Shown piece after piece: positions 1-21,079 of a stretch of 21,434 bases of DNA. The DNA comes from Fragilariopsis cylindrus CCMP1102 (taxonomy: Eukaryota > Bacillariophyta > Bacillariophyceae > Bacillariales > Bacillariaceae). The stretch's first letter is position 1; the number at the start of each line of letters is the position of its first letter. The position numbers were made by a program, and so were the translations under genes. The stretch covers positions 1 to 21,434 of the forward strand of contig FMBT01000703.1 in NCBI GenBank assembly GCA_900095095.1. The letters run 5' to 3'. The notes beneath the pieces are model-generated. The model was not told the origin of the DNA. It did no database searches and was given only the letters and a program-made list of their open reading frames with translations.

Positions 1-2614
1 GGAACTTCGGGGGGACGTTTAATAACTGAACAACTTCCTCGTCACCCTCTGTCCCGTCGGACGCTGCGAGAAACATTGCCGTACTTTCAATACCTCGCAT
101 TTTGGATGGTTTGAGATTCGTCACCGCTACAATCTTCTTACCAATCAACTCATCGATTGGGATCTTACCGGCGAGTCCAGCCACGATGGTACGATATTCT
201 GGACTTCCATCTTCGGATATGTCTCCAACAGTCTGCTTTGCACCACTAGTAAACTATCTGCTTCTGGATGAGCTCCTGCTTCGATAATCGTTGCCGCTCG
301 GAAAGCAACACGTCGGATATCTTCAACTGGACCCTTCTGCTCTTGTAGCTCTCTACCACCCCTGCCTCGATTTCGTTGTGCTGGTGCTTTGCCGTCATTA
401 TTATCATTCTTTTGGTCCGGTTTGACACCACCCCACGCATCCCGAAGCGTAACGACACGATTGAAAATAAGATTATCTTTCCCAGTTGACTCTTTGTCTA
501 GTGCGAAATATCCACTTCTTTCAAATTGATACGCAAGAGAGGATGGGTGTATTTTATTACTATTATTACTGTCAGATTGTTTGTCAATCGTTGCGATCAT
601 CTCAAGAGCATCCTCCGCGACACTTGGTTCGATAAGTATATTCTCCATTATTTCGAGTGAATTAGGATTCAAATCCTTTAAGTAATCGCCACTATCCTTT
701 CCAGGTTCTTCGGTTAGGAATAAACGATCGTATTGATTGATTTTACATTGCACGCCAGTAGTTCCTTCAACCCAATGGATAATACCTTTCACACGTTGCA
801 TCTCTTCGGGAGTAACACCCGCTCGAGTATCGGGGAAATAACTACATTTTAATTCGATAGGTTCCTGTGTATCAGGATCACGGATGATTTCGTCACATTG
901 GATAACATATGCGTACCGTAAGCGGACCATCTTGTCAGGTAGTAGTCGTTTGTATCCTTTGGGTACTCTCCCTCCGTTATTTTGGCCTTCGGGTCCATCA
1001 AGATCAAAAAAGTCACTTCGTTCGATGTACAAATCTTTTCCGAATGGTATAGTCCGATCACCCATTTCAGCAATCTTGGATGACGTGGTGCTTCAAATTC
1101 TTCTAATTCGTTACCTTCTCTTTCCCAGTTTGTTAAGGTTATCTTAAGAGGTTTCAAAACACAAAAGGCACGTTGACACGATTCGTCCATTTTTAATCGG
1201 ATACATTCCTCTAAGGCAGAAAAGGCAATATTAGACTCAGCTTTGGATATTCCAACACGTTCACAAAATAGTCGTAATGCTGATGGTGGCACACCCCGTC
1301 GTCTCATTCCCGATAAGGTTGGCATCCTTGGATCGTCCCATCCATGTACATGATTCTGTTCGACTAATTGAATTAATTTTCTTTTGGATAATACAGTATT
1401 TTGTATATTCAATCGACTAAATTCAATTTGTCGTGGCTTTGATGTGATTAGTCCCGTTGGTATTAATTTGTCAATCAACCAATCATAAAATGGTCTATGA
1501 TCTTCAAATTCTAACGTACAAAGTGAATGTGTAACACTTTCAAGTGAATCTGATATAGGATGACTAAAATCATACATTGGATATATACACCATTTCTCTC
1601 CAGTTTCCTGATGAGATTCATGTTTGATCCGATACAAAGTAGGATCTCTCATGTTGATATTTGGTGACGTCATATCAATTTTTGCACGTAGTACGTGTTC
1701 ACCCTCTTTACATTCTCCATTTTTCATCTATTGTTTATTATTGCCATGTGAAAAAGGGATTTTTCATGGTTTTTTGCGTGACGTACCATATCGATGGAAT
1801 AAGATCAGCCAGGGGGAAAGTCAAAACAAAATAATACGTAAGAAGAATGTCGTCGCGTGATGTGGTGATATCGTTGTATAGTCAGTCGTTGTGTATCATC
1901 CACTAGTATAGTTTATATAGTATTATTGTATGCAGTACGTACCTTACGGAAAATATCTAAATTTTCTTCCACGCTACGTGTCCGATACGGACTATCCTTA
2001 CCCGGTTCAGTTAATGTACCACGATATTCTCTCATATCTTCTGCCGATAATGATTCAATATACGCATCACCTTCTTTGATCAATGCCTCAGCACAATCAT
2101 AAATAGTATCAAAGTAGCTTGATGTTTTACGTACATCACCCTCCCATGGAACAATATTTTTTCCATCGTCTTCATACAAACCCGATTGGATCCATTTTAC
2201 ATCTTCTAATATCGATTCGACGTATTCCAAATCTTCCTTTGTTGGATTAGTATCATCCATTCTCATATTACATGTCCCATCAAACATCCTTGCTACTGCA
2301 AAATTAAAAGAAACTGCCTTCGCATGACCTAAATGTAAATATCCATTCGGTTCTGGTGGGAAACGTGTTTTAACGGCAGGCATAGTAAAATCTTCTGCTG
2401 CTGCTTGATTATTATTATTATTATCCCCTTCTTCTACTTTCGGATCAAAGCCGGTATCTTCTTGAATAATTTTGGTAATAAAATTAGGTGCGTAAGCGAA
2501 TCCATGGCAGAAAGAAATACCGCTGCTTCCACTGCTGCTGCTGCTCGAGAAGAAACCTACCAGACCGAAAATAAGAAGAGATCCTCCTATGTTATTGAGA
2601 ATTATGTTCGCCAT
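1..2614 (-). CDS. Glutaminyl-tRNA synthetase, bacterial type, with C-terminal tRNA-binding domain (partial)
   Basis: Charges tRNA(Gln) with glutamine. Exon 1 (2614-1943) holds a hydrophobic leader (residues about 9-22), an ASAFAP-like site (HGFAYAP), and the class I start [16 protein letters not shown] with HLGH at residues 94-97. Exon 2 (from 1727) continues FRK|MKNGEC and carries [23 protein letters not shown], the KMSKS equivalent [22 protein letters not shown] and the anticodon-binding domain with [19 protein letters not shown]. After [11 protein letters not shown] the frame runs into a tRNA-binding OB fold ([21 protein letters not shown], then [20 protein letters not shown] and [15 protein letters not shown]) and leaves the window. 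Two one-base deletions break the frame, near 1072 (CCAAG where CCAAAG restores HPKIAEMGD) and near 235. The leader suggests plastid targeting; that is inference. Family identity is very secure. Confidence 0.93.
1728..1942 (-). other. Intron in the GlnRS gene
   Basis: 215-bp phase-0 intron. The donor is AAG|GTACGT and the acceptor CAATAG|ATG on the minus strand. Splicing joins DIFRK to MKNGECKEG, the junction expected from E. coli-type GlnRS (LFEKMRAGGF). Both reading frames close shortly inside the intron. Confidence 0.9.
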
Positions 2615-3040
2615 CTTATAATAATAGTAATGAACGATGAGGATCTACCGGTAGATGACGACGACGATGCGTATAATTTAGCGTCTGGTGTCAGGGTCCA
2701 ATTCTAAAACTTGGTGAGTGATTATGATTGCGGATTGTTGTAGTTGTTTGCTAAGTTTTGCTTGTCGATTGTTTCTATTCCCATGCCGATAACAGTATTT
2801 AACAATAATGCTAACACACATTAGTTGAAAAGTAGTGTTTGTTGCATCGGCAGATGACGAATGTCAAATGTAGAATGCAAATTTTTGATGGGTGATGGTT
2901 GATGAAGAGGTTTCAGTCACGACTAATTCTGAATCGTGACCCAGAGAAAAAATTCACCCTTGTTTGTTTGCCAGTCGGTAAGTACAGCTCAGCCGCCCCC
3001 AATTAGCCTTCTTTGCTGTAAATATCAACATTCTACCCGC

Positions 3041-3080
3041 AGCTATCTTAAAAGACAGAATCTAAAAAGGGACTCTAGCT
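3041..3080 (+). repeat. Direct repeat copy 1 upstream of the MYND gene
   Basis: Imperfect 40-bp element beginning and ending in AGCT. It shares ATCTTAAAAGACA, AAAAAGGGACT and TAGCT with the copy at 3355-3397. The TATA-like segment is degenerate here (AATCTAAAAAGG). Confidence 0.75.
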
Positions 3081-3354
3081 ATTCTGTTCTTTTTCACGAT
3101 CTTATTATCAACATAATTATTGTTGAGTACAGTATGAGTACTAGGGTCCTACTGTATATGGGTGGGTGGGGGGGGCGCAAATCTAAGAATATTGCGCTCG
3201 ATTTTTATTTTTCGCGTATTTTATGCTTTCAAATTTATGACTTCTTCTTCTTGATTTCAAAAAATCCAAACGGCGCGCCACTGCATTATTCTTGTCTACT
3301 CCCTTTTAGTGACTACGTCGACAGAGCCGCTTCGAGATGAAGGGACACAGCCAC

Positions 3355-3397
3355 AGCTCTATCTTAAAAGACACAAATATAAAAAGGGACTGTAGCT
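3355..3397 (+). repeat. Direct repeat copy 2 with TATA-like element
   Basis: Second copy of the element at 3041, 43 bp, again bounded by AGCT. It contains ATATAAAAAGGGAC (from 3378), a good TATA-box match about 120 bp before the MYND start codon. A promoter role is inferred from position only. Confidence 0.7.
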
Positions 3398-3502
3398 GCC
3401 TTTATCTAATTAGTCTCAACTGAAAGACGACGAGGTACGATATCAGTAGGCTGACAGTTAGCTTAGTAGGATCAGTATAACAAAAGTTGATTTTAAAATA
3501 CA

Positions 3503-4489
3503 ATGGGTCGAAAACAAAAATTGCGTCAAGAACGCAAGATTAAAAACAAAAATCCGACGTCAGCGGTGGTAACTACAGCACCAGAAGCAACAGTAGAAGC
3601 AGCATCAGAAGGTAGAATGCCGGAGGCGGCGATGAAGGCAATAGCAGATGAAATAGACAATATGTTTCCGAAATCGGATGAATATGTCCAAGCAATGATG
3701 GATATGGATACTGAGATTATTAATGGAAATGAACATTATAAGTTGAATAATATTGAACAATATGTGTTATTCAAACAGGGCGCCACAGAACATGGGTGTG
3801 TACATAGCATGCTCCTAATGGGAAAAATACTGCGGATATGGAGTGCTACCACTAAAGGACACTGTAATCCTCCTCCTATGTATATACATTTAGCGTATCC
3901 TTGGCTTTTGGAAGGGGCTATCCGCGGAAGTTTTAGATGTATAATGAATTTGATTGGGGAATGTTATATGCATCAGGCCGGACCGGATCGGAGGACAGAT
4001 GCATTATTTGACTACTGGGGGAAAATCGCCAATAATACCGACACTCGAATCCCCGCTTTAGGTCTCAACGAATTGAAGTATCGTTTAGGGCGAAAATGTG
4101 TTATTTGTTCAAAAACAGATACTAAAACATTAACACTCACACAATGCATGGGGTGTAGCTTTCATTGTTATTGCAGTGAATCTTGTCAGACAACTCATTG
4201 GAATGAACACAATCACAGGGGTGAATGTAAACAGCTTCGAATTCTGCATAAGTATCACAAGCCATATGCAAAAGCAATTCGGGATGCAGCAATTCGTGGT
4301 GATATTCATCCAGCCCTGGAAAAGTTACAATACAAATTGGGTCTGTCACGACCTTTAGAGGACTATCAGGAACTAATTGACTACAATACACACGATGGGA
4401 AATTAATTAATCCTAAAGACTACGTTGTTGCTAGGGAAGATGGGACGGTATGGGTAGGATCTTTCCCCAGTAGTCAACATCTTAAATGA
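3503..4489 (+). CDS. MYND zinc-finger protein with Sel1-like region
   Basis: 328-residue protein in one uninterrupted exon. The basic N-terminus (MGRKQKLRQERK) is followed by an Ala/Glu-rich linker, then a helical segment (about 85-195) with Sel1-like spacing (GAIRGSFRCIMNLIGECY). The MYND finger spans residues 199-242: CVIC, CMGC, then YC-SES-CQ, a Trp and an H-x3-C end, so all expected zinc ligands are present. MYND fingers bind short Pro-rich peptides; the specific partner here is unknown. Proteins of this shape belong to expanded families in diatoms. The start is the first ATG of the frame, after an A-rich leader. It ends 290 bp from the convergent sulfotransferase-like gene. No frameshift was seen. 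Confidence 0.88.
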   Translation: MGRKQKLRQERKIKNKNPTSAVVTTAPEATVEAASEGRMPEAAMKAIADEIDNMFPKSDEYVQAMMDMDTEIINGNEHYKLNNIEQYVLFKQGATEHGCVHSMLLMGKILRIWSATTKGHCNPPPMYIHLAYPWLLEGAIRGSFRCIMNLIGECYMHQAGPDRRTDALFDYWGKIANNTDTRIPALGLNELKYRLGRKCVICSKTDTKTLTLTQCMGCSFHCYCSESCQTTHWNEHNHRGECKQLRILHKYHKPYAKAIRDAAIRGDIHPALEKLQYKLGLSRPLEDYQELIDYNTHDGKLINPKDYVVAREDGTVWVGSFPSSQHLK

Positions 4490-4553
4490 AACAAAAGTAC
4501 TGCGTTACACGACGTAGAAAATAGATAATCTCAACACGTACAGTAACTGATGA

Positions 4554-4581
4554 GATGATGATGATGATGATGATGATGATG
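4554..4581 (+). repeat. GAT/ATG trinucleotide microsatellite
   Basis: About nine ATG units in the short convergent spacer between the MYND gene and the sulfotransferase-like gene. It lies outside coding sequence. Confidence 0.9.
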
Positions 4582-4778
4582 TAAGGCACAAAATAATATG
4601 CAAGTACTACAACTGCAGAACAATTCTAAAAAAGTTTAATCTCAAATGCAGATTACACATAGTGTGTGTTTCGGGCTGAGTTGAGTAATTGAACAAAAAA
4701 AGTTTTGACAATGATAGGTTATTATAAAGTATTACTAGTACTATTTAAACCCTGCCGTGATGCAAAAATTACTGTGTA

Positions 4779-6931
4779 TTAGAAACTCGATATTACTGTA
4801 CCCGCTTCCCGTGGTGGAAAAATTACTGTGTTTAGGAATTCTTCATTACTGAATAACTTCTCAATATTAACTTCACAAAATGCACCGGTTGAAACATATT
4901 CATTAAATGATTTATCGTGTTCGGTCTTGATATGAATTATCCATGAATCATCATCATCATCATCGCCATTCTTGTTATTATTATTATCATCATCATCATC
5001 ATCATCATCACGTGTTGGATACTGAGATGATAGAATCAAATGATCCGTTTTTGTCGATGATAATTCAATTAGATGGGTATTGGATTGTTTTCGTCGTGAC
5101 TTATTGTGCATCTTGACTAGCAATACTTGTTGAAGTAAAAAGTTCCAGGATGCAACTTTCAACTTTTGAGTTGATTCCGACTTTAAACATCGTTTCAACT
5201 CGTGGTGTTCATACACATCGCTGCTGCTACTACTACTACTACTACTACTACCGTTCGTATTTGTTGTTGTAATATTACGGTTGTTGCTTCCATGGCTTCC
5301 GCTACTTGCTATGTTTTGTTGTTTGTTTTTATTATTACTATTCAACCACCGTTGAATCCCATTTTTAATTTTATGACCCGTTGGGATAGTAACGTGATGA
5401 CTTGAATTGAATTCCGGTGTTAATGATAACTTTTTCATCCGCGTAGTCTGTATGATTCGAAACATATCATCTTTCGATAACAAATGATGAGATTTAGGTT
5501 TCTTATCCTTTTACGGAATTCTTCATCCTCCGTTTGTTCTACCAAATGACGACATGTATTCGTTGCAGATGGTAACATTTGACAGACGAAGTTCGCAAAT
5601 AGATTTTGTTGTACCGGTTCATTATTCGGCATCATGCTGCTATTGTTGGTATTATATTCTTGTTGATGCATATCAAATATCTCAACTCGATCGTATAATC
5701 CAAGTTGAGACGACCACATCAAATACGAATAGATAGATCCATGAACCTTTTTTTGTGCTTCTTTTTTGCGGGAACTAAAAAAAATTCCATCGTATGCGGT
5801 ATTGTTAATATTATTCCGCTTATTATTACTGTTGGTGTTGGTGTTGTTGTTGTTGGTGTTGTTGTTCTTATCGTCTTCCACAGGATCGTATTGGATTAAA
5901 TCCCGTAAGAACCATTCAACATATGCAATAATCCCTGGTATGTATCCCTCGTACGGGTACAGTAAAGTAGTGTCGTTACTAATTTCTGTATCTTTATTTG
6001 GTGTATCTTTTTTAGCAACAAGATGACGTTGGTCATAATAGGAAGGTAACCACTCAAAGAAATGTCGATAACCGACGACGATTTTTATCTTAAATCCAAA
6101 CAATTTTCAGCAGTTGCGGAATCTTGCTGCTGTTGTTGTTGTTGTCGCTGCTGCTGTTGTTGCTGTTGTTGTTGACGGGTGTTATTTTTCCTTAAAAATA
6201 TTCCATTGAAGATCTTATCAAAGCTTCCCGGTAGATGAAGCAATTGACTGGTGTAGAATTCAGAGGAAATTATAACATTACGTTTATTGTCATGATAATC
6301 TGTAATTATCCAGAAATTCTTTCGAATGACTATAGATGAAATGATTCATTCCAAAAATTGTGATATTCGCCTTATCATTCATTGTCGGTGTCCAAGACTT
6401 TTTATTCTTTCACTTTCTTTGTTCTCAAAGTTTGTCCCATATAATAATAGTTATCCTCTTAGCTAATTGAACAGCAATCTTTTCAAAGAATGCTGGATGG
6501 TAGTTGTTGCAGTCTTGGTGGTCCGACATGTAAAATCAACCATGGACGGTCATCATCCCATCATCATCATCAACATCGTTCTTTTTTTCTCTTCATGTTG
6601 TTCGAAATCACTAATCTGATGTTGAGCCGACCGTGACGTTTTTGACCCTATCAACTGATGATGACGACGATAACGATAACGATGAAGATGAATTCCCCAT
6701 TCTTTGCTGGTGTTGTCACTACCGTCAACGTCAACGTCAATCGACATCAACGTAATGACGTGATGTTTTTGTCCTTGCCAATCGGTGACAACGACGAAAA
6801 CGATGATAGCGATGGTGATGATCCCAATAATTCTGAATCCTTGTAGTAATCCATCGTAGGATTAACAGACGCTCATTGTTGAAAATGATTAGGATAGTAA
6901 ATAAAACAACCAAGAAAAAATAGAAACGCAA
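4779..6931 (-). CDS. Sulfotransferase-like type II membrane protein, frame-broken
   Basis: Pieced together from fragments on the minus strand. 6931 starts a short cytosolic end and one membrane anchor (MRFYFFLVVLFTILIIF), typical of Golgi type II enzymes. At 6550-6490 lies WLILHVGPP, then in the next frame KTATTTIQHSLKRL, together a PAPS-binding P-loop-like motif of sulfotransferases. Later pieces are NYYYMGQTL, SWTPTMNDKANITIFGMNHF, NVIISSEFYTSQLLHLPGSF, a poly-Q run, KIVVGYRHFFEWLPSYYDQ (5'-PSB-side YR) and a C-terminal segment from 5483 ending TVISSF. At least seven frame changes separate them, including CCAAG for CCAAAG near 6518. Polar N/D/Q runs interrupt the fold. Membership of a diatom sulfotransferase-like family is likely and the substrate is unknown. 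With this many breaks it could also be a true pseudogene. Confidence 0.6.
6120..6175 (-). repeat. CAG/CAA run encoding poly-Gln
   Basis: Mixed CAA/CAG codons on the minus strand encode about 16 Gln with one Arg inside the sulfotransferase-like gene, between NGIFLRKNN and the ENC segment. Confidence 0.9.
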
Positions 6932-8026
6932 ATACTGTTTTCTATTTCCTGGTGGTATACTTTTCCATCACCACCTTTCTTTTCTTCTTACTTCTTCTTA
7001 TTATTAGCAGTAGGATAGATATTTATCGTCATTGTTTTTTAATTGTATTGGCGTACTACTAACTTACAGTAGCTGGTGTTTTATTAAATTGATTTTGTGA
7101 TTTTCCGTCGCCGATCACATTGTTTGTATTGCGCTTCGATTCGTACAGTACGGAGAATTATATTCCCGCCGGATGATCTTATATTCATTCGAATGATAGG
7201 ATAGGATAATCTTCTTCTACAATATGTCAATTGCCTTCCCTCAACCTCGGACGGACACTACGCTTCGCTCCTAGCTAGCTGCAGCATGGGTTGCCTGTTA
7301 TGATTTCCTATTATTTCTGTTGGCCCATTTTCGAAATGGAAGGGGTTATTGGGGAAACTTTAAATTATGTTGGTCAATTTTTTGTGAATTGAGGAGGAAT
7401 TCGTTTCCCTTTTGAGTAGTTTTTTTTCTCGCGCTTTATCACACGGACAATGTCAAACTCACGATTGAAATAAATAAATTTAATAAAAATTGACCAGGTT
7501 CAAGCAGGTGCTGTGTGTTCAGATTTTCACAAAATTGAAACACTTCTCCTAGTACAGCGTCGCCGACAATTTCACCGACAACTTCGCCCCTACAATAAAG
7601 TTCTCCCACATCTACTAGTCCATCTGGTACAGTAATCCAACAGACACAACAGAACCAACTGATCCTCCAACTTTACATCCCCTACAGATAGTCCTACTGA
7701 ATACGCCAACCGCAAGTCCAGTCCGACTGCATCGCCTACAGATTCTCCCCCACATCTAGTCCAACTAATTCACCTAGTGAACTCTTTTGTTTTTAAAATA
7801 ATCATATCATCACATAAACTTTTATGAGCACTGAATTAATGTAAAGAGCGAATGAAAACGAAGAAAGCAATTTTAATGACAAGATACAAGATTGACTCAA
7901 AAATAAATAACTGACAACACAAAACAACAATACATTCAATAACAACAAGCTTGAAAGAGAAGAGAATACTGCTGAACTAACTCGTCTTTTGTTCTATAGA
8001 CCCGAGAAAGAAAAAATATAGCGACG
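6932..8026. other. Intergenic region between sulfotransferase-like gene and ISCA2
   Basis: Divergent spacer of about 1.1 kb and AT-rich, with a CTT/ATT-rich stretch at 6975-7010. Apart from the Ser/Pro/Thr relic at 7542-7781 I see no coding pattern. Confidence 0.6.
7542..7781 (+). pseudogene. Relic of a Ser/Pro/Thr-repeat coding sequence
   Basis: Translated pieces in changing frames read TSPSTASPTISPTTSP, SSPTSTSPSG, PTDTTEPTDPPT, SSPTASPTDSPP and TSSPTNSPS. This is the SPT-type repeat common in diatom wall and surface proteins. It has no start codon, several in-frame stops and no flanking domain, so it is probably a fragment or a decayed gene. The function of the parent gene is unknown. Confidence 0.5.
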
Positions 8027-8890
8027 ATGGCAATAACGACGATGGCAAGTACAATACTTAATCACACGAGAAGAAGAACAACGACAATGGCGTCATTATT
8101 ACTATTACGAAGGATACCACCTGCAACACGATCGATCGTATCATTTTCCTTCGTATCCTCATCTTCCAACAACAACATCATCAACAACAACACATCATCA
8201 ACAGCAACAGCAGCAATACTATCAATATCAATCGCCGTTCATTAGTAACGATAACCAAAACAAAGTCATCTGATAATGACAATACTGTTGTAGTAGCAGA
8301 CGATATTGGTATTAACGATGATGATGGTGGTGGTGGTGGTGGTGGTTCTAAACAACAACAGCAGCAACAACAACAACAACCCATTACTGTAAACTCGTCG
8401 TCGTCTGGATCGAATAGCAGCAATGATCTTACCAATTATGTCTACAATCCCAACTCAACACTGATCGTAACAGAAAGTTGTTTGAATCGTGTAGAAACAC
8501 TTCTGAAACAAAAACGAGAAAAAGATGATGATGATGGTAACATAATAATAATGCGGATGAGGATGGTTATTTTTTAAGAGTATTTGTGGATGCTGGTGGT
8601 TGTTCCGGTTATACCTATCAATTTGAAATTGATAATGTATTAGATACTGATAATGACGATGACGAAGAGAGTGAAGATATTATAGTGGTATCCACATCAG
8701 TATCCGGTGCACCAAGAATTGTTGTGATAAAACATCGTTAGGGTTCCTCGAAGGATCGAAAGTGGATTATGTCATAGAAATGATTAAATCAGCATTTGTG
8801 GTGGCTGATAATCCACTATCAGAATCAGCATGTGGTTGTGGTTCATCCTTTGCTATGAAGAATTTTGAAAAACATGGTGTAGAAGATTAA
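8027..8890 (+). CDS. ISCA2: Mitochondrial iron-sulfur cluster assembly protein, ISCA2/HesB type
   Basis: A-type Fe-S assembly protein; ISCA1/ISCA2 help build [4Fe-4S] clusters in mitochondria. The leader from 8027 is Arg/Ser/Thr-rich (RRRTTTMASLLLLRRIPP) with no acidic residues and no ASAFAP site, so mitochondrial import is inferred. A low-complexity linker (poly-Gly, poly-Gln) leads to the A-type domain: LIVTESCLNRVETLLKQ, FLRVFVDAGGCSGYTYQFEI, FLEGSKVDYVIEMIKSAFVV and SACGCGSSFAM. The three conserved Cys (GGCSG and CGCG) are all present. The frame changes near 8232, 8550 and 8735, each consistent with one missing base; corrected length is about 288 residues. It ends at TAA 8888-8890, convergent with the next gene. 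Confidence 0.85.
8321..8383 (+). repeat. GGT and CAA/CAG runs in the ISCA2 linker
   Basis: Seven GGT codons followed by nine CAA/CAG codons encode a Gly tract and a Gln tract just before the conserved A-type domain. Presumably a disordered linker. Confidence 0.85.
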
Positions 8891-9190
8891 ATTGTATGCA
8901 AAATTAATAATACAAATGAATCAATGGAATGAAAATGAATTGAGATTCAAAGATACGAATTCAAAAACAAAACCAAATAAATATCAGTACTAGTGATAAC
9001 ACCGAGGAAGTTCAACAAGGTACTACCATATACATGTGGTAAACGCATATATATGAGTATGAATGTATTGAATACTGCATATGGAACTAGTAGTAGTAAA
9101 TAATTACTAGACAACAGTAAACATCGTACATTTTTTTTCTTCTTCAACTGTTTTTAAGTTACTTTTTCCTTGGGTTATGTTCTTCATGTT
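8891..9190. other. Convergent spacer
   Basis: 300 bp between the stops of ISCA2 and the next minus-strand gene. AT-rich, with no coding or structural signal seen. Confidence 0.6.
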
Positions 9191-10528
9191 TTATTTTGCA
9201 TTAGCTGTACTACTACTACTACTACCAACTATTGTGACAGCGAATTTTGATGATGATGATGATGCTGATAATGCATTCTTTGATTGCTTTAATAAACGTT
9301 CTTGTTCTGCTTCCATTTCAGCTGTAATAACCAGATTTTTCATTTTTTTCTTCATTTTCATCTTATGTCTTCTTATCTTATTCTTATTCTCATTCGCAGC
9401 AGCAGTGGTAGTAGCACAAGTAGTCTTCATCGTTGAAATAGTATCATTATTGGTGGCAGTAGTGCTACTAGTAGTAGTAGTGGTGGTGGCACACGTCTTC
9501 ATTATCGTTGACGATGATAATACTGCTGCTTTGCTCTTAGTATTATTGTCATCGTCATTCTTGTTGTTGTTGTTGTCATTCTTGCCTTCAGTCACCTCTC
9601 CGTTTTCGTCTTTATTTTTGATCTATTTTTAGAATTAGAAGAGGTACATTGTTCTCGACGTCGTTTCTTTTTCTTTCCTTGCAGTAGTAAATTTTGTGCT
9701 TCCGTCACAATTCGTTTCATATCAATAAGCTTTGTATTATCGTTGTTGTTGTCATCCTCATCATCGCTTCCACTTCCACTTGTTGCATCATTATCATTAT
9801 CATCCTCATTAGTAGCAAGAGTAAGTGCACGAACAAGTAATTCATTATTAATCGTATCATGTTGTGATAGTTCCGTACCAATTTGTCGTAAATACATATA
9901 ATATGTTTCACGTAATAATTCAACAGCAGTTTGTGTAAATTTAATATTCATAGGAACAACAACATTCACAGGAACATTCACCTCCAGAGTAGTTCCAGCA
10001 GCACTAGCACTACTAGTCACACTAATAGCTTTCATATCATCGTCATTGTTTTTGTTGTTACCGATATTGTTGGAACCGTTACTATTACGGCAACTACGAC
10101 GGATACTACGACGGCGAAGATTGTGGTTGTGACTACTCTGATTTGTCGTTGATATTGTTGTCGGTGGTAATTCTTCTTCCCCTCCTCCTTCACAGGCAGG
10201 ATTATCATTGTCATTGCCATTCTCAGCGTCATTAATTTGTTGCTTGTTGCTGTCAATTATTCCATCACTGCCATTGCCATTGCCATTGCCATTGCCATTG
10301 CTATTGCTATTGCCATTGCCATTGCCATTGCCATTGCTATGCCATTGCCATTGCCATTGCCCTGCCCTTGCCCTTGCCCTTGCCCTTGCCATTGCCATTG
10401 CCAACGCTACCTCCGTCGTTGTCGTTTTCATGATGACGATGGGGAGCAAAGATCGTAGATAGGTATCCATGAAATTCACCGATACCTATATTCAATCGTT
10501 GTCTTTTATGTTTATTCATGTTTGACAT
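9191..10528 (-). CDS. Low-complexity protein with possible histone fold
   Basis: Function not firmly recognised. From the ATG at 10528 the frame reads MSNMNKHKRQRLNIGIGEFHG, then GN/GK dipeptides encoded by the hexamer array. After two one-base slips in the array (near 10363 and 10340) it continues with Asn/Asp-rich sequence, a basic patch (LRRRSIRRSCR), a helical segment (FTQTAVELLRETYYMYLRQI, ending TINNELLVRALTLA), an acidic tract, MKRIVTEAQNLLLQGKKKKRR and, after a third slip near 9600, a Thr/Ala/Lys-rich end with KNLVITAEMEAEQERLL. The length closes at 447 codons if each slip is one missing base. The helical segment has the alpha2-loop-alpha3 pattern of histone-fold proteins such as CENP-S/MHF1, TAFs or H2B. 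That assignment is weak. The basic and acidic tracts fit a nuclear protein. Confidence 0.5.
10269..10402 (-). repeat. GGCAAT/GGCAAG hexanucleotide array
   Basis: About 22 degenerate hexamer units, coding on the minus strand. Depending on phase it reads GN/GK, MA/RA or QW. Two units each lack one A (GGCAGGGC near 10363 and GGCATAGC near 10340), which switches the reading phase inside the array. Confidence 0.92.
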
Positions 10529-10959
10529 CGTAACCGTAACGTTGGCTTTTTAGTTGAAGTTATCGTCGTATTCGAAGAATGAGCATGTATCAAGTACTCT
10601 TTGATAACAGACAACTCTACTGAAATTAGGTAACTGGGTTCATTGTTGTTCATCGTTCATTTCAATTTAAAAATTGGAAATTTCAATTTTCGATTTTCGA
10701 AGTATTCAATTTTTGTCTTGATATTATTTCTACTACAGTATTACAACGCGCTCTAGCGCGTCTTGACTACAACTGACAATCTAGACGAGATCAAAGATCT
10801 CATAAAACATAAATAACATAAAAAGATAAAAGGTAATACGGTAACGTTACTAAAATTCCCATTCCAACATTCTTATCAGTATAACTGCTCTTGCTTTTAT
10901 CAGTCTGATCAACCACACTTATGTAGACTTAGCTCTATTGCAACAGTAGTAGTGGTACG

Positions 10960-11140
10960 GTATGCAACGCAAGACTTTCAAAGTTTTATAACTTGTGTAC
11001 TTTGAACTTCTACCAGTATTTCAATTGCTGCTATTGTCTTTGAAAGGAGACTTTGCAGTCAGAGATCGTTTATCTATCTGTTTTAGCAGATCTTGATGTG
11101 ACACATAATTTGTGTACATTATTTAAATTGGTCCTTTTCC
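10960..11140 (+). repeat. Tandem duplication, copy 1
   Basis: About 181 bp starting GTATGCAACGCAAGACTTTC and ending GGTCCTTTTCC. The second copy follows after 7 bp. The copies differ by a few substitutions and a 3-bp indel (CTG). Confidence 0.93.
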
Positions 11141-11147
11141 TGGTCCA

Positions 11148-11326
11148 GTATGCAACGCAAAACTTTCAAAGTTTTATAACTTGTGTACTTTGAACTTCTG
11201 CCAGTATTTCAATTGCTATTGTCTTTGAAAGGAGACTTTGCAGTCATGAGATCGTTTATCTATCTGTTCTAGCAGATCTTGATATGACACATAATTTGTG
11301 TACATTATTTACATTGGTCCTTTTCC
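11148..11326 (+). repeat. Tandem duplication, copy 2
   Basis: About 179 bp, very similar to 10960-11140 over the whole length. No long open frame is conserved in both copies. Confidence 0.93.
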
Positions 11327-11329
11327 AAG

Positions 11330-11640
11330 AAGTTCCAAGAAGAAGATATGACACCAACACCGCTTTTCCAAATCGATTCATTGATGATCCACCAATTGAA
11401 ATAAATTGTACTAGGTCTCATTGGGAAGAAAGGAGAGCAGTCTCTGTATAAGAGTCAAATACACCACCGCCTGGATTTTTTGATGGATGGAAAACTGTCC
11501 TCCTGTTTTAGTTGTTGTGTTGATTATACTGATTATACTCTGTTTTTAGGCTATGTAACCCAATATCAATGCAACACCAAAGATTGCATCCTAAAGAATT
11601 TTCCTCCACCACATAAAGAACTTGTGTAATTGCTTGATTA
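11330..11640 (+). other. Unidentified coding-like fragments
   Basis: Short open stretches in changing frames read RRRYDTNTAFPNRFIDDPPI then CTRSHWEERRAVSV, PPPGFFDGWKTVLLF and CILKNFPPPHKELV. The composition is protein-like rather than low-complexity, and the site adjoins a tandem duplication. A decayed transposase or other mobile-element gene is possible. I recognise no diagnostic motif. Confidence 0.3.
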
Positions 11641-12198
11641 GTGATGCACACTGGGTTAACACACAAGAAAGTGTCTCATCATGCTTCAGAGTTTTTAGCT
11701 TTGAAGTGAAAGTGAGAATTTCACAACAACATAACAGCACTGGAACACACCATGATGCAGAAATTGGTTTGAAGACCAACATTGCATCCCTTTGAGAATA
11801 CCATGTAGAATTTCTCTGGGAGATCAGACCCTTAAGGTTGAGAGGCATGATAGCAGGCAGGCTGAATATGCTCTAAAGAAGTAGTAATTGAGTGACTCAG
11901 AGATTCACACGACTTACAGTTTAGTTACACGTCTTAAGCGTCTGTCTGTTTTCGTCAAAAGCACGAGTACAAATCTGATCTGGACCATTCGAGTTGTGAA
12001 TTTTCGAATCCAGAACGCGGAAAAACAAGACATGAAATTATGTGATTGGATTTTTTTGATGGCTACTACGAATACTACGACAACGACATCTGCGGATCTT
12101 TTCTTACCACAGCATCACATACTGATACACTTCATATCTCTCACTTGCACTTGTGACATACACTTTTATCTTGCTCGAGAAAACGAAAGAAATAAAAC

Positions 12199-15022
12199 AT
12201 GAAATTCATTGCCTCAGCCGTTGTTGCTGTTGCTGCAGCAAAAGCAGCAACCGCGTTTATTCCTCTTTCGTCGTTTTCGACGACGTCATCGACGACTTCC
12301 AAACCTGCTCCAGTCGGTATCGATCTCGTCGTCGTGAATGATAACATGAACAGCAACAAATACCGACGATCAGTTTCTTTCTTGTCAAGTTCTACTGAAA
12401 CCGAAGAGGCTGCAACTGAAGAGGATGCATCTGCTGAAAAATTCGAGTACGTGTCGTAACTATACAAGTCGTTGCTACTGGCATATTTATCATTTATCAA
12501 TGGCCTTTTTATTCTTTTGAATTTTTCGATCTTTCTATGATGTCGTCAAACTATCTTTTCTTTCCTTTTAACTTACTTGCTAACCAACTGTTGTAAATGA
12601 ACTATTTATCGTTGATACTATGATTGCACATCATTAATTTATTATTAGATTTACGAGCGATGTCGGTCGAGTTATGGATTTAATCATCAATTCGCTTTAT
12701 TCGGATAGAGATATTTTCCTTCGTGAATTGATCTCTAACGCAGCTGATGCATGTGATAAGAAACGGTTCCTTTCTATCACAGATGGTGAGGAAGGAGACG
12801 TTGAGGCGCCACCAGCGATTAAAATCAAATGTGATGTTGATACTAATACTGTTACAATTGAAGATTCCGGTGTCGGTATGACGAAAGATGAAATTATTAA
12901 CAATCTTGGTAAGATCGCTCAATCTGGTACACGTGCATTCGCACAGGCATTAGGAGACGGCAAATCAGATGTGAACCTGATTGGACAATTCGGTGTCGGA
13001 TTTTATTCTGCATTCTTAGTCGCCGATAAGGTAACGGTCGTAACGAAATCCATGCAGGACAATACAAAGCATACAAATGGGAATCGGAAGCTGATTCGTC
13101 GTATTCTATTTCGGATGCTAGTCCAGAAGAAATTGACGGTACATCTGGAACGAAACTTATTCTACAATTGAAGGAGGATGCTTCAACGTACTTAGAGCCA
13201 TCAAAGATTGAAGAATTATTACAACGATATTCAGAATTTATTGAATTCCCAATGTCAGTTTGGAAAGAAAAGACGGATTACAAGCAAGTTCCTGACGAGG
13301 AAGCCAATAAGGATTTGGAGGAAGGTGAAGAACCTAAAATGAAAACCGTACCAGAAACTACTGAAGGATACGAATCTGTTAATAATCAAAAACCAATTTG
13401 GTTGCGTTCACCTCGTGAAGTTTCAGATGATGAATACCAAGAATTCTACAAAACTGCCTTCAAATCAAGTTACGACACGCCAATGAAGTCAACACATTTC
13501 GTATTGGAGGGTCAAGTCGAATGTAAGGCCATTTTATACATTCCTGGTATGTTACCATTCGAATTGAGTAAGGATATGTTCGATGAAAATTCACGTAACA
13601 TCCGTTTGTACGTAAAGCGTGTATTTATCAATGACGGATTCCAAGAATTGATGCCAAGATGGTTGAAGTTTGTTAAGGGTGTAGTCGATTCCGATGATCT
13701 TCCTCTTAATGTTAGTCGTGAAATTTTACAAAAATCGAAGGTCCTTAGTATTATTAATAAACGTCTTGTACGAAAATCATTGGATATGATCGAAGACATT
13801 GCCAAGGACGAAACTGATGAGGGCGCTCAATATACTGTAAGTTTTTCCTCTTTTTCGAATCGACTTGTTTGGTTCGAATATTATTTATGTTATCTTCATT
13901 CTTATATAAAATTTGGAGTTATCGCTGACTAACAACCTTCCATACTTTTTGCTTTATGCTATTTCCTCGCATTATTTCTCTGTATCTCCCCTTATCTACC
14001 CAAAACTACATTTTTCTACTAATAATGTTGACATCTATTTTCTCATGATAAAATATTAGATGTTTTGGAACAATTTCGGAAAATATTTGAAGGTAGGAAT
14101 TATCGAAGATGACAAGAATCGTAAACAACTTGCCTCATTCTTGAGATTCTTCAGTGCCACTTCTGGCGAGGAGTTCACGAGTCTTGATCAATACATCGAG
14201 AAAATGCCAGAGGGTCAGAAGGCAATCTATTATGTAACAGGAGAGGGTAAGGAACGAGCGGCTATGTCCCCCGTCGCCGAGAAGCTCAAGTCTCGCGGTT
14301 TTGATGTCCTCTACGCTACCGAACCCTTAGACGAAATCATGTTTGAATCCCTAACCAGTTACAAGGATTTGGATATCAAGGATGCTGGTAAAGATACTCT
14401 GAAATTAGACGACGACGATGAAGAAGCCTCAAAGAAAAAGGAAGAATTAAATCGCGAAAACGTAGATGTTATCAGTTACCTAGAGACGATATTGACTGGA
14501 AGGTAGAAAAGGTTACCGTATCAGATTTACTGACAGATTCCCCCGCGGCCCTCGTGCAGGGTGCATACGGCATGTCCCCTAGTATGCAACGTTACATGAA
14601 AGCTCAAACTGTAGCAAGTGGTCAAGAACTTGGAGGATTAGACAGCATGAACAAGGTTGTATGGAGATCAACCCAAACCATCCGATTGTTAAAGATTTGA
14701 GTAGAATGGTCAAAGCGATAAAACCGGAAAAGAAGCCGAAGACTTTGCGAAGCTCCTTTTCGATGTAGCAGGAATGACATCAGGTTATGATATTGAAGAC
14801 ATGTCTGGTTTTGCCAAGAGAGTGATGGGACTAATGGGTTCACCGCAAGCTGTTGATGAAACTCAGGATGCAGTAGTCGAGAGCGAAGACAAGGCGGTCG
14901 AGGAGGAAAAGAGCGAAGAAGAGGAAAAAGCTGTTGGAATTCCGGACGCAGTAGTCGACGAGGAAAAGAAGGGCGACGATGACGATGAGGAAAAAGCTGT
15001 TGAAGTTGAGGTTATAGCATAA
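12199..15022 (+). CDS. HSP90C: Plastid-targeted HSP90 chaperone
   Basis: ATP-dependent chaperone. Exon 1 (12199-12446) encodes a signal peptide (MKFIASAVVAVAAAKAATA) followed by FIP, the classic diatom plastid cleavage site, then a Ser/Thr-rich transit region. Exon 2 (12649-13836) has the GHKL ATPase signatures DIFLRELISNAADACDK, EDSGVGMTKDEI, LGKIAQSGTRAF and GQFGVGFYSAFLVADKVTV, and the middle domain (PIWLRSPREVSDDEYQEFYK, DLPLNVSREILQ). Exon 3 (14060-15022) has FWNNFGKYLKVGIIED, QKAIYYVTGEGKE and the C-terminal dimerisation domain (MSPSMQRYMKAQT, INPNHPIVKDLSRMV). It ends in an acidic tail with no MEEVD or KDEL-type signal, as expected for a plastid form. Four one-base deletions (near 13068, 14487, 14662, 14720) break the frame; adding four bases gives exactly 801 codons. 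It is convergent with the deacetylase gene. Confidence 0.95.
12447..12648 (+). other. HSP90C intron 1
   Basis: 202 bp, phase 2: TTCGA|GTACGT to TTATTAG|ATTTACG. It joins AEKFE to FTSDVGRVMD, and it separates the targeting leader from the chaperone body. Confidence 0.92.
13837..14059 (+). other. HSP90C intron 2
   Basis: 223 bp, phase 0: TATACT|GTAAGT to ATATTAG|ATGTTT. It joins DEGAQYT to MFWNNFGKYLK, the expected middle-domain sequence. Confidence 0.92.
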
Positions 15023-15162: not shown

Positions 15163-18100
15163 TTATCTCGGAACAGCATTACACCGTGCCAGTGCGCTTA
15201 CGTGCTCCGTTACGCAATGGATAAACCCTTCTTGATGGCATTTATCCAATCGCTTCTGCAACGCATACGACGATATTACATCTGTCATGTAAGGTGGTAG
15301 ATCAGCACCTAATTCTAGACACTCCAATTGGACAGATTGCGCCTGTTTTGATTTCGAATCCGCATTCGTCGCCGTATTCATTCCTGCTGATGTTTCAGGG
15401 AAGTTTTGAGGACGGCAGCAAGGAACACCATATCCACCTTCTAAGACACTTAGCACTCTACCACTGCAACATTTATAGGCGAGTTTGCACACGACTTCTG
15501 TAAGTGTGCCGAAATCTTCTGCTGTCAATCCACCCATATTCAATGGATCATTTTTGTGAGCATCAAAACCTTGTGTTTTTTTTTTGTTTTAAAATTATGG
15601 TCATGAGGGGAACACGATGGTAAACGATGGTCAGATGGATAAGACCAATTACAATTTTAATAATAGTCAAATACAAACAACCAATCAAGCTTGATCCAAA
15701 ACAATCATAACGCAATTCGATTATTATGGTTACTTACCAGCGGAGATAATAATGAGTTCTGGATTAAATTTGTCGACTGTCGGAGTAACTTTGGTGACTA
15801 ACGCTGTTCCAAGAGCGTGGGGAGTAACTCGACCACCCAATGGAATATTAAGGACACCTTTGTGCGGAGATATATCCCCGCATCTTCCGGGAAAATTCCT
15901 TTCTTTGGGTTTCCCCCAAGATGGTGTTCCAATTGATCCAAATTGTCGTCTTCAAAGTCCACCCCGTTGATATCTGGACCACCTGCATGCATTGAAACAT
16001 AAAGAAACCGTGGGTCGTATGTCGAGCAAAGTATATCTTGGGTTCCATTCCCATGATGCACGTCAATGTCGATGATACAGACCCTAGATAGACCAAGACC
16101 ACCCTGTAGAATTGGAGCTGTTGCGTACAGAGCAGCACATGCTACGGTATTCAGGATACAAAATCCATTTGAAACAGCTTTCATTGCGTGCAATTCACGA
16201 CCTGCATGATGCCCTGGAGGTCTCGTAGCACAAAAAGCATTCAGACATTCCCCGTTCATAATCATATCTACTCCCTGCAATGCAGCTCCTACTCCTGAGA
16301 TGGCGGCATTCCATGTTCCCTTTGACCCCTCTATTATATCGAGATAATTTAGAAGTTAGAATAGGGCCAAAACAAAACGATCTATGGAACACAAGATAAA
16401 AAACAGATAACTTACTTGTATCTTCCCCACCATTCCCGTCACTATCATCAGTTAAAGCAACCACGTCATCTTCAGTTGCCGCCAAACACCTTTTCTTTAT
16501 CCTTTCTATATAAGACATTTTATGTGCTCTCCTAATAACATCATTTTCGGCAAGATCTAGGTATTTTTCTCCCACTGTATTGATAATACGAATATTGCCT
16601 TTTGCTTGCCTCGCTCCTTTCAAAGCCGCAGGTAATCGAACTGCCCTCTCATAGCAATCACTAGAAGTGAGGTGAAGATTACAACGACTATCTGTGATCA
16701 CCCATGACACGCTATCGCTTCCCGATGTAGTATTAATATGTTTGTAAATTCGCTCACAGCAACGTCGCCAGTCTTTCAGGAACATCAGATATTTATCCTT
16801 TTTTAGAGAAGCTATCAAAGTTTCTCCTTGGGACTGATTTTACCATGAATAATTTGCAGGTTTTTAAGTGAGGATGGATAGATTCGATATAAGATTAGAA
16901 TTTAAGAAAAAATTCTCACACTACACTTACCTTTACGATGATCCATGTCCTGTTCATAGATCTTAAGTATTTATTCCTAGCTTCGGATCCATGTATCTGC
17001 TGTAATGATGAGCATTTTGCGTCCGCGATTACCAATTCATTTAGGCTGTTCTTTAGAATATTGCTCGTATGCGAGTTTTCAGATATAAGAGAATGGAGCG
17101 ATGATAGCCCGACGATAAATCTACCTGTATCATACGGATCATCCTTACTTCCTTTGCCCTGACGAGAGAATGAGACTGGAGAACTTATTGTTGAGTAGAA
17201 CTGTGGCGATTCCTTCACTTCTGATGTACCATCTAAGTTCAAACCCCAACATGCTGGCGGCTTCATTGAGTCTAATATTCTACCAAATTGGAGTGCTGGC
17301 TCTCCCTTTGCCATGTCACCAGGATACGCTTTTGGGCGGAATGTTTGTTTCTCGTGATGTGGCAACTGGGATAACATATGGATGAAAGGTAGCTGAAGAG
17401 CTGATGCAGGAAAATGCGCCGTATGAACTGCTAATGGATGCCCTTCCAACAGGGCAGCAGCAGCGCGATCACTATCTGATGCACGAGTTGACTTCATTTC
17501 AAATTGTGAAAACGTTCTGAACCCCAACGCCAGTCTATGGCTATCTAAAAACCTAGAAAACGCATCTTTCGGTAGACCCATTAATTTAAAAGACAACCGT
17601 AACGAATCGATGTCCAGTCCCGATTCTGCATCGTATGGGTATCTCTGGATCGATGCTTCATCGGCATCGGTAATCTCAACTTCAAACAAAGGACCAGAGC
17701 TAAAGAGTGCCTCGCCATGTCGAAGAACCGAGTCGGATAACGCTTCGACGCGTCTTCCACCACCACCACCACCATTTTTCATCATCGCGTGGTTGCTATT
17801 CCAGTAGGGTGCAAGAAACACAACATCCACCTTCTTTTTATTCCTACCTCGTTTGCTATGAACGCCAACTAACTCGGACCGTGCATAACTCGTGCGGGCC
17901 AAAATACGCCGTGTCTTGCACCACGAGCAAACGAGGTTGCTAGAATTATACCATGCTCAATACCATCAACGTCGAATTTAACTTTGGCATTGCCCTGGGT
18001 CAATTTCCGTTTCTGGTCCGACGATGATTGCGCTGCCTTCTTGCGTTCATACTTCTTCCTTGAATCTGCTAATTCTTCTGGTTCCAAATCGAACGTTAAC

Positions 18101-21079
18101 AAATCTTCAATCCACATTCCCTTCCATAGATCACCCATATCATTATCGTGGACGAATGCAATAACAACACCTACATATCCCTGCCACCAGATTTTTTCTC
18201 CTATCCGATATGCACCACCAGATGCACCCATCGGTTCTGATGCCTTCGTGGTTGTCCAACCATCTTGTTGTAAGACGATAGGGTCAATTGAAAGTCTACT
18301 AATTGCTTCTGCAATACTCTCTGGTGAATTCATATCGATATTTGCCAATATTAGTTTGGCTTGCTTCGGTACATTCTTGTAGTTGTAAACATGTCGCAAC
18401 ACATGACTGATTAACTCTAGACTGTTGTTGCTTTCAATATTAACGATACTGGTACCATCATTATTATTATCGGTGCTGCTGTCGTTGATTTCTGTATTAA
18501 TTCCTACCCACTCTAATAGTGATCGTTTCTTTGATCGTTCACCCTCCCGCCCATCAGGATTTTCAACCTCATTACTATTAGTTAATGCTAATACACCCAT
18601 AAAATGTTCATCCCATGTCTCATCATTTGCTCCATTATCGAACTCAAATAATCGTTCCAATTGAATCCGTTCCGCTGTGCTTAAAGATCTCAAAGGACGT
18701 ATACCAGGATCGGACATTATTTTCAACGTTGGAAAGGTCGTATACAAACTAACAACTTCTGTACCGTTATTTTCCTTTTCTTTGTTGAGGCCACGACAGC
18801 GGCAACCTGCGGTGGTGGTTTCGGGGATGACGATCTTTTCCTGTTGTTTTATTGTTGGCGGTTGATGAAGTAGTAGAAGAAGATTTGTCAGAAGAAGAAG
18901 ACTTCTTGGTGGTAGATACGATTGGTACTGCCTTCGACTTTGGCTTCGGCTGTGGCTCAGGATGCTGTATCGGCCAGGATCTGTGCTTGCATTTCTTCTT
19001 CTCACAACGAAGCATTTTTTGCATCTATACACCTTGTTGTCGCACTGGCCAGCGCATCGGTTGCATTGACATGTTTGCATTGTCGACACCCTAGTATTTT
19101 TGTCATTGCTTCTACCCATATCTCTACTACTGAACGACACACCAGAACTCGCTGTCGCCACCACCTTTTTATCGTTTTTAATGGTGATTTTATTAGAAGG
19201 TCCTCCACTGGATGCTGCTGTTGCTTTTGTTATTATCTTCTCCTTTTCTTCGGAAGGAACGTTTCCGTCGTCTTCCTTCTTTTGGTCGCTTTGTTGTTTT
19301 CTAGAGTCTGAAACTGAAACTGAAGTAGAATTATCATTGGGAGCTAGAGCATTATTTTTTCCTTCCTGTACATTTGCTTTTGTTGATAAAATATTCATAC
19401 TATCTCCCGAAGACGACGTCGTCGTCGTTATTGACCGAGTCGTTTTTGGTGCTGACTCGTTGTCGTCCATCTTTTGTTTCTTCGTCGGTCCACCATAAAT
19501 CTCATCTTCGTTGTACACAGGTGCAACTTGTTCCACTGCTCCACTAATTTCTTGCAAGTTCTTGATACAGATACTTTTGGTTGAAAGAAAGTTGTATAGA
19601 CCGGTATAGTTGGATCGGTCGATACCAGAAAAGACAAATTCCTGTTGATTACTAATACTGGCAGCACTGGCCTTCAAAGTAACACACAAATCAAAGTTAC
19701 GAGTCGAACCTTGACCTCCTGCATATCGTTGAAACTCAACACTTTTGACTTCATTGAAACGAATCAACAAGGGAGGTTTGTGAATAAAGACAAGTTGCTT
19801 ATCTAACGGATAGAGCAACCCCTCATTGGCCCAAAATGTGCACTTGACACATGGTCTGGAAAGTTTTCCAGGAATGAAGACTTTTTTCTTTGCTATTACC
19901 TTGAAGGTTTTAGCAACTAGGTTGGAGAGAGACCCTCTCATGATTGGTTGCAAATCATCTCCGTATTCTTTCTTCAACTTATCTTCGTCAAGCTTGACTC
20001 TCACTTCGTCAGGATCCTTGTTGGTTTGGAGGACCAGATTTTGGTAACGATGCTGACCCTGACGAATCGGTTTGTTTAATGCGATGACAAAGGCCGAATG
20101 GACATCATCAGGTTTCGGGAGAAGATAAAATCTAGAAATATCGTCGAATTTGATTTTGTAATTGTACTTTTGACCACGCATTCGAAAGAAGTGTTCATCT
20201 ATTGTTGTTGGATGATTAAATGTATATAAATTAATTCGAGCGGAATAACACAAACGGGTGAGCATAATGAAAGGACACGGTGTGAATATCAAAGTGAGGA
20301 ATGTAAAGAGAAAAGAAGTAAAATGATAAGCTCAGACACTACACGCAGACCACTTAAATTACGGTAGATATATAAATTTACATACACAATTCAATAGAGT
20401 ATCGACCACATGGAGTAAGAACTTCCAAATCAAACTCAACTATGGCATCTCCGGTTGTCTTTCGAATATTTGTTTTTGATGCTGACTCGTTGTCGTCCAT
20501 CTTTTGTTTCTTCGTCGCAATATCAGGTAATGATTTGTCTTTGTTTAGCTTTATATCATCATTATCTCCATTGGCATGTGGTGGTTCTGTGGCTTTTCGT
20601 TTATGAATAATGGTTGCAGTTGCAGTCGTAGATAATGATGCTGATACCGTAGACGATGATGAGACCGTCGAGTTTCCAGCAGCAGCAGCAGCAGCAGCGT
20701 TAACATTAACATTAACATTGGATGGTTTATCGGATGAAGTTGCTGCAGTAGTTGTAGTATGGCTACTACTTGTCGGTAGCGAACGTGTTTCCGTCGACGT
20801 CATCGTCGCACTCGCGACAGCGGTGCTCGGGGGCAATGATGCCGTCGTCGTCGTCGTCGCCAATGAAGGCTTCGGTACAACGTTAACATTGCCCATTACC
20901 GATATGCTGCTGGTGTTGTTGGGAGGTTTCGTGTGAGATGCTGTTCCATTGGGTACTGAATCTGAGGTGTAGCTGGCTATGTACTGCACATCATTTTGTG
21001 TATTATTCTCTGTTATCGGCCTGATAGTATCATTATTGTCCTCTTTGTCTTTGGTTTGTCCCAATTGCTGATCCGACAT
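15163..21079 (-). CDS. Multidomain chromatin protein: SSRP1 middle domain, Cys cluster, Tudor/PWWP-like segments and histone deacetylase
   Basis: Five exons: 21079-20386, 20198-16931, 16833-16416, 16330-15738, 15569-15163. Order of parts with approximate corrected residues: Ser/Thr/Asn-rich N-terminus (1-205), SSRP1/Pob3 double-PH middle domain (207-455), polar linker, Cys cluster (605-640), Tudor-like segment (893-953), PWWP-like segment (970-1032), and HDAC domain (1369-1720). An uninterrupted 807-codon frame links the SSRP1 module to the PWWP segment. One missing base near 17880 and one near 15893 restore the frame, giving 5382 nt or 1794 codons including stop, and all four intron phases then agree. 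The predicted role is deacetylation of histones at sites read by the other modules; that is inferred. The alternative is two genes (SSRP1-like and HDAC) joined by my model, but no stop, intron or obvious promoter separates them. Confidence 0.75.
15570..15737 (-). other. Deacetylase gene intron 4
   Basis: 168 bp, phase 1: TCCGCTG|GTAAGT to CACAAG|GTTTTGATG. It joins IIISAG to FDAHKND, splitting the zinc-binding motif. Confidence 0.92.
16331..16415 (-). other. Deacetylase gene intron 3
   Basis: 85 bp, phase 1: GATACAA|GTAAGT to AATAG|AGGGGTC. It joins GGEDT to KGSKGTWNAAISGV. It is the shortest intron in the window. Confidence 0.85.
16834..16930 (-). other. Deacetylase gene intron 2
   Basis: 97 bp, phase 0: GTAAAG|GTAAGT to AAATCAG|TCCCAAG. 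It joins TWIIVK to SQGETLIASLKKD. The next downstream AG (CCCAAG|GAG) would hit a stop, which fixes the acceptor. Confidence 0.85.
17797..17985 (-). other. PWWP-like domain in the deacetylase gene
   Basis: Starts GIEHGIILATSFARGARHGV, with the core FWPARVM (the PWWP signature position), and after a one-base break near 17880 continues SELVGVHSKRGRNKK and VDVVFLAPYW. PWWP domains bind methylated histone tails on nucleosomal DNA. A conserved-looking helical region follows (LFEVEITDADEASIQRYPYD, AFSRFLDSHRLALGF). Confidence 0.6.
18035..18215 (-). other. Tudor-like segment in the deacetylase gene
   Basis: Reads RIGEKIWWQGYVGVVIAFVH followed by GDLWKGMWIEDLLTFDLE, with regularly spaced aromatics as in small beta-barrel chromatin readers. 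The family cannot be fixed by eye; it may be a second PWWP- or agenet-like fold. Confidence 0.4.
18974..19080 (-). other. Cys-rich zinc-binding-like cluster
   Basis: Frame A gives TCQCNRCAGQC and VYRCKKC. Shifting by one base in the T-run at 19015-19020 (six A on the coding strand) gives MLRCEKKKCKHRSW instead, whose C-x4-C-x4-W spacing resembles the end of CXXC zinc fingers. Zinc binding is likely; the CXXC assignment is tentative. Confidence 0.45.
19442..19487 (-). repeat. 46-bp direct repeat, copy downstream of SSRP1 module
   Basis: Encodes TKKQKMDDNESAPKT just after the SSRP1 module. It matches 20472-20517 at 45 of 46 bases. TKKQKM is basic and could be a nuclear localisation signal. Confidence 0.95.
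19530..20460 (-). other. SSRP1/Pob3 middle (double PH) domain module
   Basis: Reads EFDLEVLTPCGRYSIEL|YEHFF (across intron 1), RMRGQKYNYKIKFDDISRFY, LLPKPDDVHSAFVIALNKPI, RQGQHRYQNLVLQ, GLLYPLDKQLVFIHKPP and SVEFQRYAGG. This matches the FACT subunit SSRP1, whose middle domain binds histones. The usual N-terminal SPT16-binding domain does not precede it here, and no HMG box follows. Confidence 0.9.
20199..20385 (-). other. Deacetylase gene intron 1
   Basis: 187 bp, phase 1: GAATTGT|GTATGT to CAATAG|ATGAACAC. It joins GRYSIEL-Y to EHFFRMRGQ, exactly as in the SSRP1 family. Confidence 0.9.
20472..20517 (-). repeat. 46-bp direct repeat, copy upstream of SSRP1 module
   Basis: Encodes TKKQKMDDNESASKT just before the SSRP1 module, 1030 bp from its partner. 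The single difference changes Pro to Ser. Confidence 0.95.

Follow-up and report, generated by a model that had tools for sequence, protein, structure and literature searches.

The chromatin proteins that come closest to the gene described here are SSRP1/Pob3 of FACT and the class II histone deacetylases, of which HDAC6 chains provide the best matches in the PDB. For the way in which the gene seems to have arisen, the nearest described counterpart is formed by the templated or patch insertions with a flanking duplication that follow staggered breaks and are known from plants. The locus has features in common with each of these systems and departs from each of them. Like SSRP1/Pob3, it encodes a complete PH1 domain and a complete Rtt106-like middle domain, and the DNA concerned is 93% identical to the SSRP1 gene of the same genome. 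It differs in that the POB3_N, SSrecog and HMG parts are missing from the slice, in that conserved positions have been changed and in that the two domains are situated upstream of a deacetylase. The catalytic domain and the active-site motifs are those of the class II deacetylases, whereas the long low-complexity N-terminus, the undescribed middle region and the SSRP1 slice set the predicted protein apart from that class. As in the plant insertions, a short direct repeat flanks DNA that appears to have been copied ectopically and the intron was kept; unlike in those cases, the copied sequence has landed in a coding exon, stands in frame and comprises a whole two-domain unit.

The window, by which we mean the entire stretch of DNA that was analyzed, is the complete contig C503 (21,434 bases) of the Fragilariopsis cylindrus CCMP1102 genome (67.9 Mb in 818 contigs). 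This genome has 27 silicon transporter matches of nearly full length (best E 1.1e-226, profile positions 3-504 of 513), which points to a diatom or some other silicifying stramenopile; one of 14 control genomes gave a signal, and this stayed below the cut-off.

Gene model and domain content

On the minus strand five exons can be joined into a single reading (Table 1). They total 5380 nt and the phase is kept across all four introns. The joined reading contains two frame breaks, one near 17880 and one near 15855, and restoring two missing bases yields 1794 codons. The codon count and the agreement of the intron phases that had been put forward in an earlier note on this DNA were thus recovered, the exon total being two bases short. 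The same note had described a continuous frame of 807 codons. A long frame is indeed present, although its length is 820 codons from stop to stop (20331-17869), some 775 of which follow the splice acceptor at 20198.

Table 1. Features of the chimeric gene and of the inserted slice, with their positions in the window.
Feature	Position	Strand	Details
Chimeric gene model, five exons	15163..21079	minus	Exons 21079-20386, 20198-16931, 16833-16416, 16330-15738 and 15569-15163; splice sites and phases worked out
Host gene start, low-complexity N-terminus	20517..21079	minus	No Pfam match
Direct repeat, first copy, 45 nt	20472..20516	minus	TKKQKMDDNESASK; 44/45 identical to second copy
One extra base between first repeat copy and slice	20471..20471	minus	Junction comparison
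984-nt slice of canonical SSRP1 (C651:51618-52617), intron included	19487..20470	minus	935/1005 columns identical, 26 gap columns
SSRP1 PH1 domain (PF21103), split by intron	19879..20449	minus	Joined residues 211-338; coordinates mapped by hand
Intron within slice, inherited from SSRP1	20199..20385	minus	Ends GTATGT...CAATAG; 11 differences from the intron of SSRP1 in 182 aligned positions
Rtt106-like middle domain (PF08512)	19558..19854	minus	Joined residues 347-445; coordinates mapped by hand
Direct repeat, second copy, 45 nt	19442..19486	minus	TKKQKMDDNESAPK; 44/45 identical to first copy
Weakest link: open frame with poor codon scores along much of its length, cysteine-rich and then low-complexity	18740..19160	minus	Codon scores; openness P 0.00135
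Undescribed host region (Tudor/PWWP-like in the earlier note)	16931..18717	minus	Database matches unconvincing; frame break near 17880
Histone deacetylase domain (PF00850), exons 3-5, frame break near 15855	15422..16560	minus	RPPGHHAG, DIDVHHGNG, SAGFDAH, LEGGYG; coordinates mapped by hand

Pfam was run on one joined reading in which an X had been placed at both frame breaks. The SSRP1 PH1 domain (129.5 bits) and the Rtt106-like middle domain (83.8 bits) were both recovered over their full profiles (positions 1-130 of 130 and 1-91 of 91, respectively), and the Hist_deacetyl profile scored 201.4 bits against a cut-off of 27.9 (profile positions 28-284 of 298). The SSRP1 middle module and the deacetylase that had been placed together before are therefore found on one joined reading. 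A sequence search of the PDB was in line with these assignments: the frame of deacetylase exon 4 was nearest to HDAC6 and that of exon 2 to the SSRP1 chain of 5ums (E 1.4e-38), which we take to be the human protein. The letters of the deacetylase motifs stand at joined residues 1498, 1549, 1659 and 1703 and correspond to the catalytic His-His pair, the zinc Asp/His/Asp and the Tyr. Their presence makes a working enzyme plausible.

The Tudor and PWWP domains that had been proposed for the region in between could not be confirmed with the whole reading or with its segments. More specifically, no such match was obtained in Pfam or in the PDB for the isolated segments at E values up to 10. The best PDB matches were weak, being designed TIM barrels at E 0.32 for the PWWP-like segment and a CAP-Gly domain at E 1.4 for the Tudor-like segment. 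Thus, of the domains that prediction had been expected to return, the SSRP1 double-PH and Hist_deacetyl were found, PWWP was not, and SSrecog is absent from the joined reading, in which POB3_N and HMG parts were without a Pfam match as well. A sub-threshold match to FdhE_N and a match to HTH_19 on isolated segments (E 0.056) were disregarded. Single-sequence AlphaFold2 models had a mean pLDDT of 32 for the middle host region and 34 for the slice.

The deacetylase gene is apparently single-copy. Its 346-codon middle frame matched only itself in the genome, and a genome search with the DNA of the gene uncovered no allele without the insertion in the same assembly. No relatives were confirmed in viral contigs (searched for the 346-codon, the deacetylase exon-4 and the exon-2 frames) or in bacterial and archaeal genomes (searched for the 346-codon frame), in scans that employed a few peptide patterns with a reach of close relatives and that left diatom genomes outside by design.

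Frame breaks are not restricted to the chimeric gene. The pieces of an HSP90-type gene on the plus strand (12638-15022) involve about three frame changes, and at the left end of the contig a Gln/Glu-type tRNA synthetase shows, in comparison with contig C688, a one-base dropout at 1078, where two frames meet. C688 overlaps positions 1-3134 of the window at 98%, with single-base gaps both ways, such that C688 also lacks bases that are present in the window. The overlapping sequence has the appearance of a second haplotype, or else of an overlap left unpolished. Considering the breaks in the neighboring genes, base-level errors explain the frame breaks best, while some of the differences between the two contigs may be haplotypic. 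The earlier explanation of the frame breaks by missing bases is thereby supported, as housekeeping genes nearby are broken in a like manner.

With respect to the remainder of the window, the HSP90-type gene is convergent with the deacetylase gene and their stop codons are 140 bases apart. The region 3078-4574 encodes a MYND-finger protein of a dispersed family: in a comparison of positions 1-15000 with the own genome, 44 of the 52 among the matches listed fall in this region, and the seven longest among the matches listed extend over about 1.2-1.3 kb at 81-86% identity. The stretch 8000-10485 is rich in simple repeats and has long open frames on both strands.

Source, edges and substitution pattern of the SSRP1 slice

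A genome-wide search with the DNA of the chimeric gene returned one other place, the canonical SSRP1 locus (Table 1), and a protein search likewise found only these two places. The gene on C651 is whole, with matches to POB3_N, SSrecog, PH1, the Rtt106-like domain and the HMG-box, and SSrecog is found in the genome on this contig only. The slice consists of the end of one SSRP1 exon, an intron and the start of the next exon, and it holds the complete double-PH module. Its identity to the canonical gene, given above with gaps included, amounts to 95.5% over the 979 ungapped columns. To judge from this comparison, the SSRP1 part was duplicated from the canonical gene recently. The intron within the slice indicates that the copy was made at the level of DNA and argues against a retrocopy of spliced RNA.

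The match to SSRP1 breaks off abruptly at both ends of the slice. The direct repeat adjoins the slice directly at the right edge and lies one base away at the left edge, with one base being ambiguous at the slice edge next to the second copy. A 31-nt core of the repeat occurs only at these two places in the 67.9 Mb when up to three mismatches are allowed, and a reversed control gave no match. Moreover, the flanks of canonical SSRP1 are different at the slice junctions and the 45 nt are not part of SSRP1 there. Considering these flanks and the presence of the repeat at both edges, the 45 nt are most simply seen as host sequence that was duplicated at the insertion. The divergence between the copies, one position in 45, agrees with the age of the slice (the probability of at most one difference at 6% is 0.24).

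After removal of the intron the two repeat copies are spaced by 843 nt, a multiple of three, so that 281 codons have been added in frame by the slice, one repeat copy and the extra base. Indeed, the slice enters and leaves the host frame in the right phase. The differences in length with SSRP1 are a net 9 and 12 nt in the exonic part (each presented by BLAST as two nearby gaps) and 5 nt in the intron. The slice contains no stops; as 24% of the neutral simulations, run with an equal number of changes, were free of stops too, this openness is weak evidence for coding.

Of the 265 aligned codons 34 have changed, and 27 of these changes are non-synonymous; the neutral simulation gave 25.6 +/- 2.5. 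The dN/dS of the slice versus SSRP1 was 0.047/0.045 (NG86), 0.043/0.030 (LWL85) or 0.050/0.038 (YN00), values that derive from 34 changed codons in two sequences, in which the branches, relaxed constraint and a mixture of positive and purifying selection are inseparable. A simple binomial on the two sequences gave P values of 8e-5 for an omega of 0.3, 0.010 for 0.5 and 0.32 for 1. The substitutions in the slice fit neutrality. When aligned to the SSRP1 of 5ums, 23 of the 27 replacements could be placed: 13 affect the 87 sites that are identical to the presumed human sequence and 10 affect the 119 other sites (Fisher P 0.18), hence the conserved sites were not spared. A further four of the 119 sites are deleted, and 10 sites opposed to gaps are unchanged.

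The changes are spread unevenly, with only four of the 34 in the last 85 of the 265 codons (P 0.006, post hoc). This segment (19487-19750) is nearer to canonical SSRP1 than the rest of the slice. This unevenness may reflect partial gene conversion or local constraint.

The slice had been considered a FACT-type histone-binding module that would couple nucleosome handling to deacetylation. A young copy with neutral-looking substitutions does not support that proposal, and these substitutions together with the unspared conserved sites leave a working FACT-like module unproven.

Origin of the chimera and competing explanations

We consider it probable that a slice of the SSRP1 gene was recently inserted, in frame and by break repair, into the apparently single-copy deacetylase gene, and that the module has since been tolerated. 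On this view, the coding region for the low-complexity N-terminus would have suffered a staggered double-strand break, or two nicks, with an offset of about 45 nt. Repair would have filled in the break and used a copy of SSRP1 DNA as a patch, thereby duplicating the 45 nt. Transcription of the chimera would start at the deacetylase promoter, splicing would remove the intron inherited from SSRP1, and the resulting deacetylase would carry the additional double-PH module within its N-terminal half. The module would simply be tolerated, and not be preserved for the sake of binding histones, since codon changes in it have accumulated at a neutral-looking rate, with the frame and the splice sites surviving. 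The marks of a templated insertion are found at the locus, in the form of host sequence directly repeated on either side of the slice and of a donor that was copied at the DNA level and is itself intact.

The continuity between the slice and the deacetylase is essential to this reading. It seems unlikely to us that there are instead two neighboring genes, one with the SSRP1 slice that ends within 19160-18740 and a deacetylase gene that starts near the ATG at 18717. The codon scores do provide a ground for such a division, as those of the open frame are negative in the windows from about 19160 to 18890, where another frame, mostly with stops, scores better, and they are good again from about 18680. 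In addition, a stop could be masked, given the frame breaks elsewhere, and chance could account for an open frame in the 85 codons at 19024-18767 taken alone (P 0.055). On the other hand, the 241 codons from 19441 to 18717 are free of stops, which was seen in none of 20000 simulations, and 139 open codons at 19160-18740 are improbable in Markov-simulated sequence (P = 0.00135). The dip in codon score by itself marks no gene boundary, because lower scores are also seen in the first exon, which is of low complexity (windows at 20899 and 20839); with 2629 training codons, the score is a blunt measure for cysteine-rich and low-complexity stretches. In a search for an intron in 19450-18700 with a loose pattern, four donor-like sites were matched, and neither GTAAGT nor GTATGT was among them. 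Compensating base errors may be present in the 19160-18890 stretch. The sequence at 19075-18950 is rich in cysteine (TCQCNRCAGQCDN..CKKC, with RCEKKKCKHR in a neighboring frame) and may be a zinc motif that was split by a base error; when the part near 19075-19010 was joined with an X to the neighboring frame, Pfam gave only sub-threshold matches (Myb_DNA-bind_4, E 0.058; CCDC106, E 5). One gene for the SSRP1 middle module and the deacetylase is the best reading of the DNA. The single gene proposed earlier accordingly holds in outline, with the frame open across 19160-18740, but its codon support is weak at about 19160-18890. A decaying pseudogene with real frame breaks we regard as improbable: the two breaks in the joined reading and the neutral-looking substitutions of the slice are what decay would leave, whereas the HSP90-type and tRNA synthetase genes are broken too and the catalytic motifs of the deacetylase are present.

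The direct repeats look like target-site duplications, and a mobile element could have captured and carried the slice. This is very improbable, as the slice meets the repeat directly or after a single base, which leaves no room for the ends of an element, and typical target duplications are shorter than 45 nt. That two loci were fused during assembly is hardly credible. The contig is short and has base-level errors, as might be expected of such a product, but the slice differs from its source at 4.5% of the ungapped columns, in exons and intron alike, and a simple misjoin does not place duplicated non-SSRP1 sequence at both edges. Finally, the insertion could have been selected for a new function, in which the double-PH module would bind histones and steer the deacetylase to nucleosomes. 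Both PH domains are complete by Pfam, the frame and splice sites are intact with exonic length differences in multiples of three, and the deacetylase motifs are present. Nevertheless, we hold such selection to be rather unlikely in view of the neutral-looking substitutions, with an omega of 0.3 or less rejected by the two-sequence test (P below 1e-4), and of the conserved sites that were not spared. A bolder version, decidedly doubtful in our opinion, would have a new chromatin enzyme caught at its birth: a complete FACT double-PH module captured by repair and translated in one chain with a deacetylase, the replacements reflecting rapid adaptation to the new partner and not drift.

Tolerated insertion by break repair being the preferred explanation, the sequence data point to a chimera that is real and unusual and whose origin is very legible, although it is not yet evidence for a FACT-deacetylase machine. 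The locus calls for caution with gene models: behind a striking combination of domains there can be an insertion that is young and near-neutral, and not an established machine. It is mostly from old proteins that domain shuffling has been inferred. In the present case the donor, the acceptor, the edges and the target duplication can all still be read in one genome, so that the mechanism by which a domain was captured and the early fate of that domain become directly testable.
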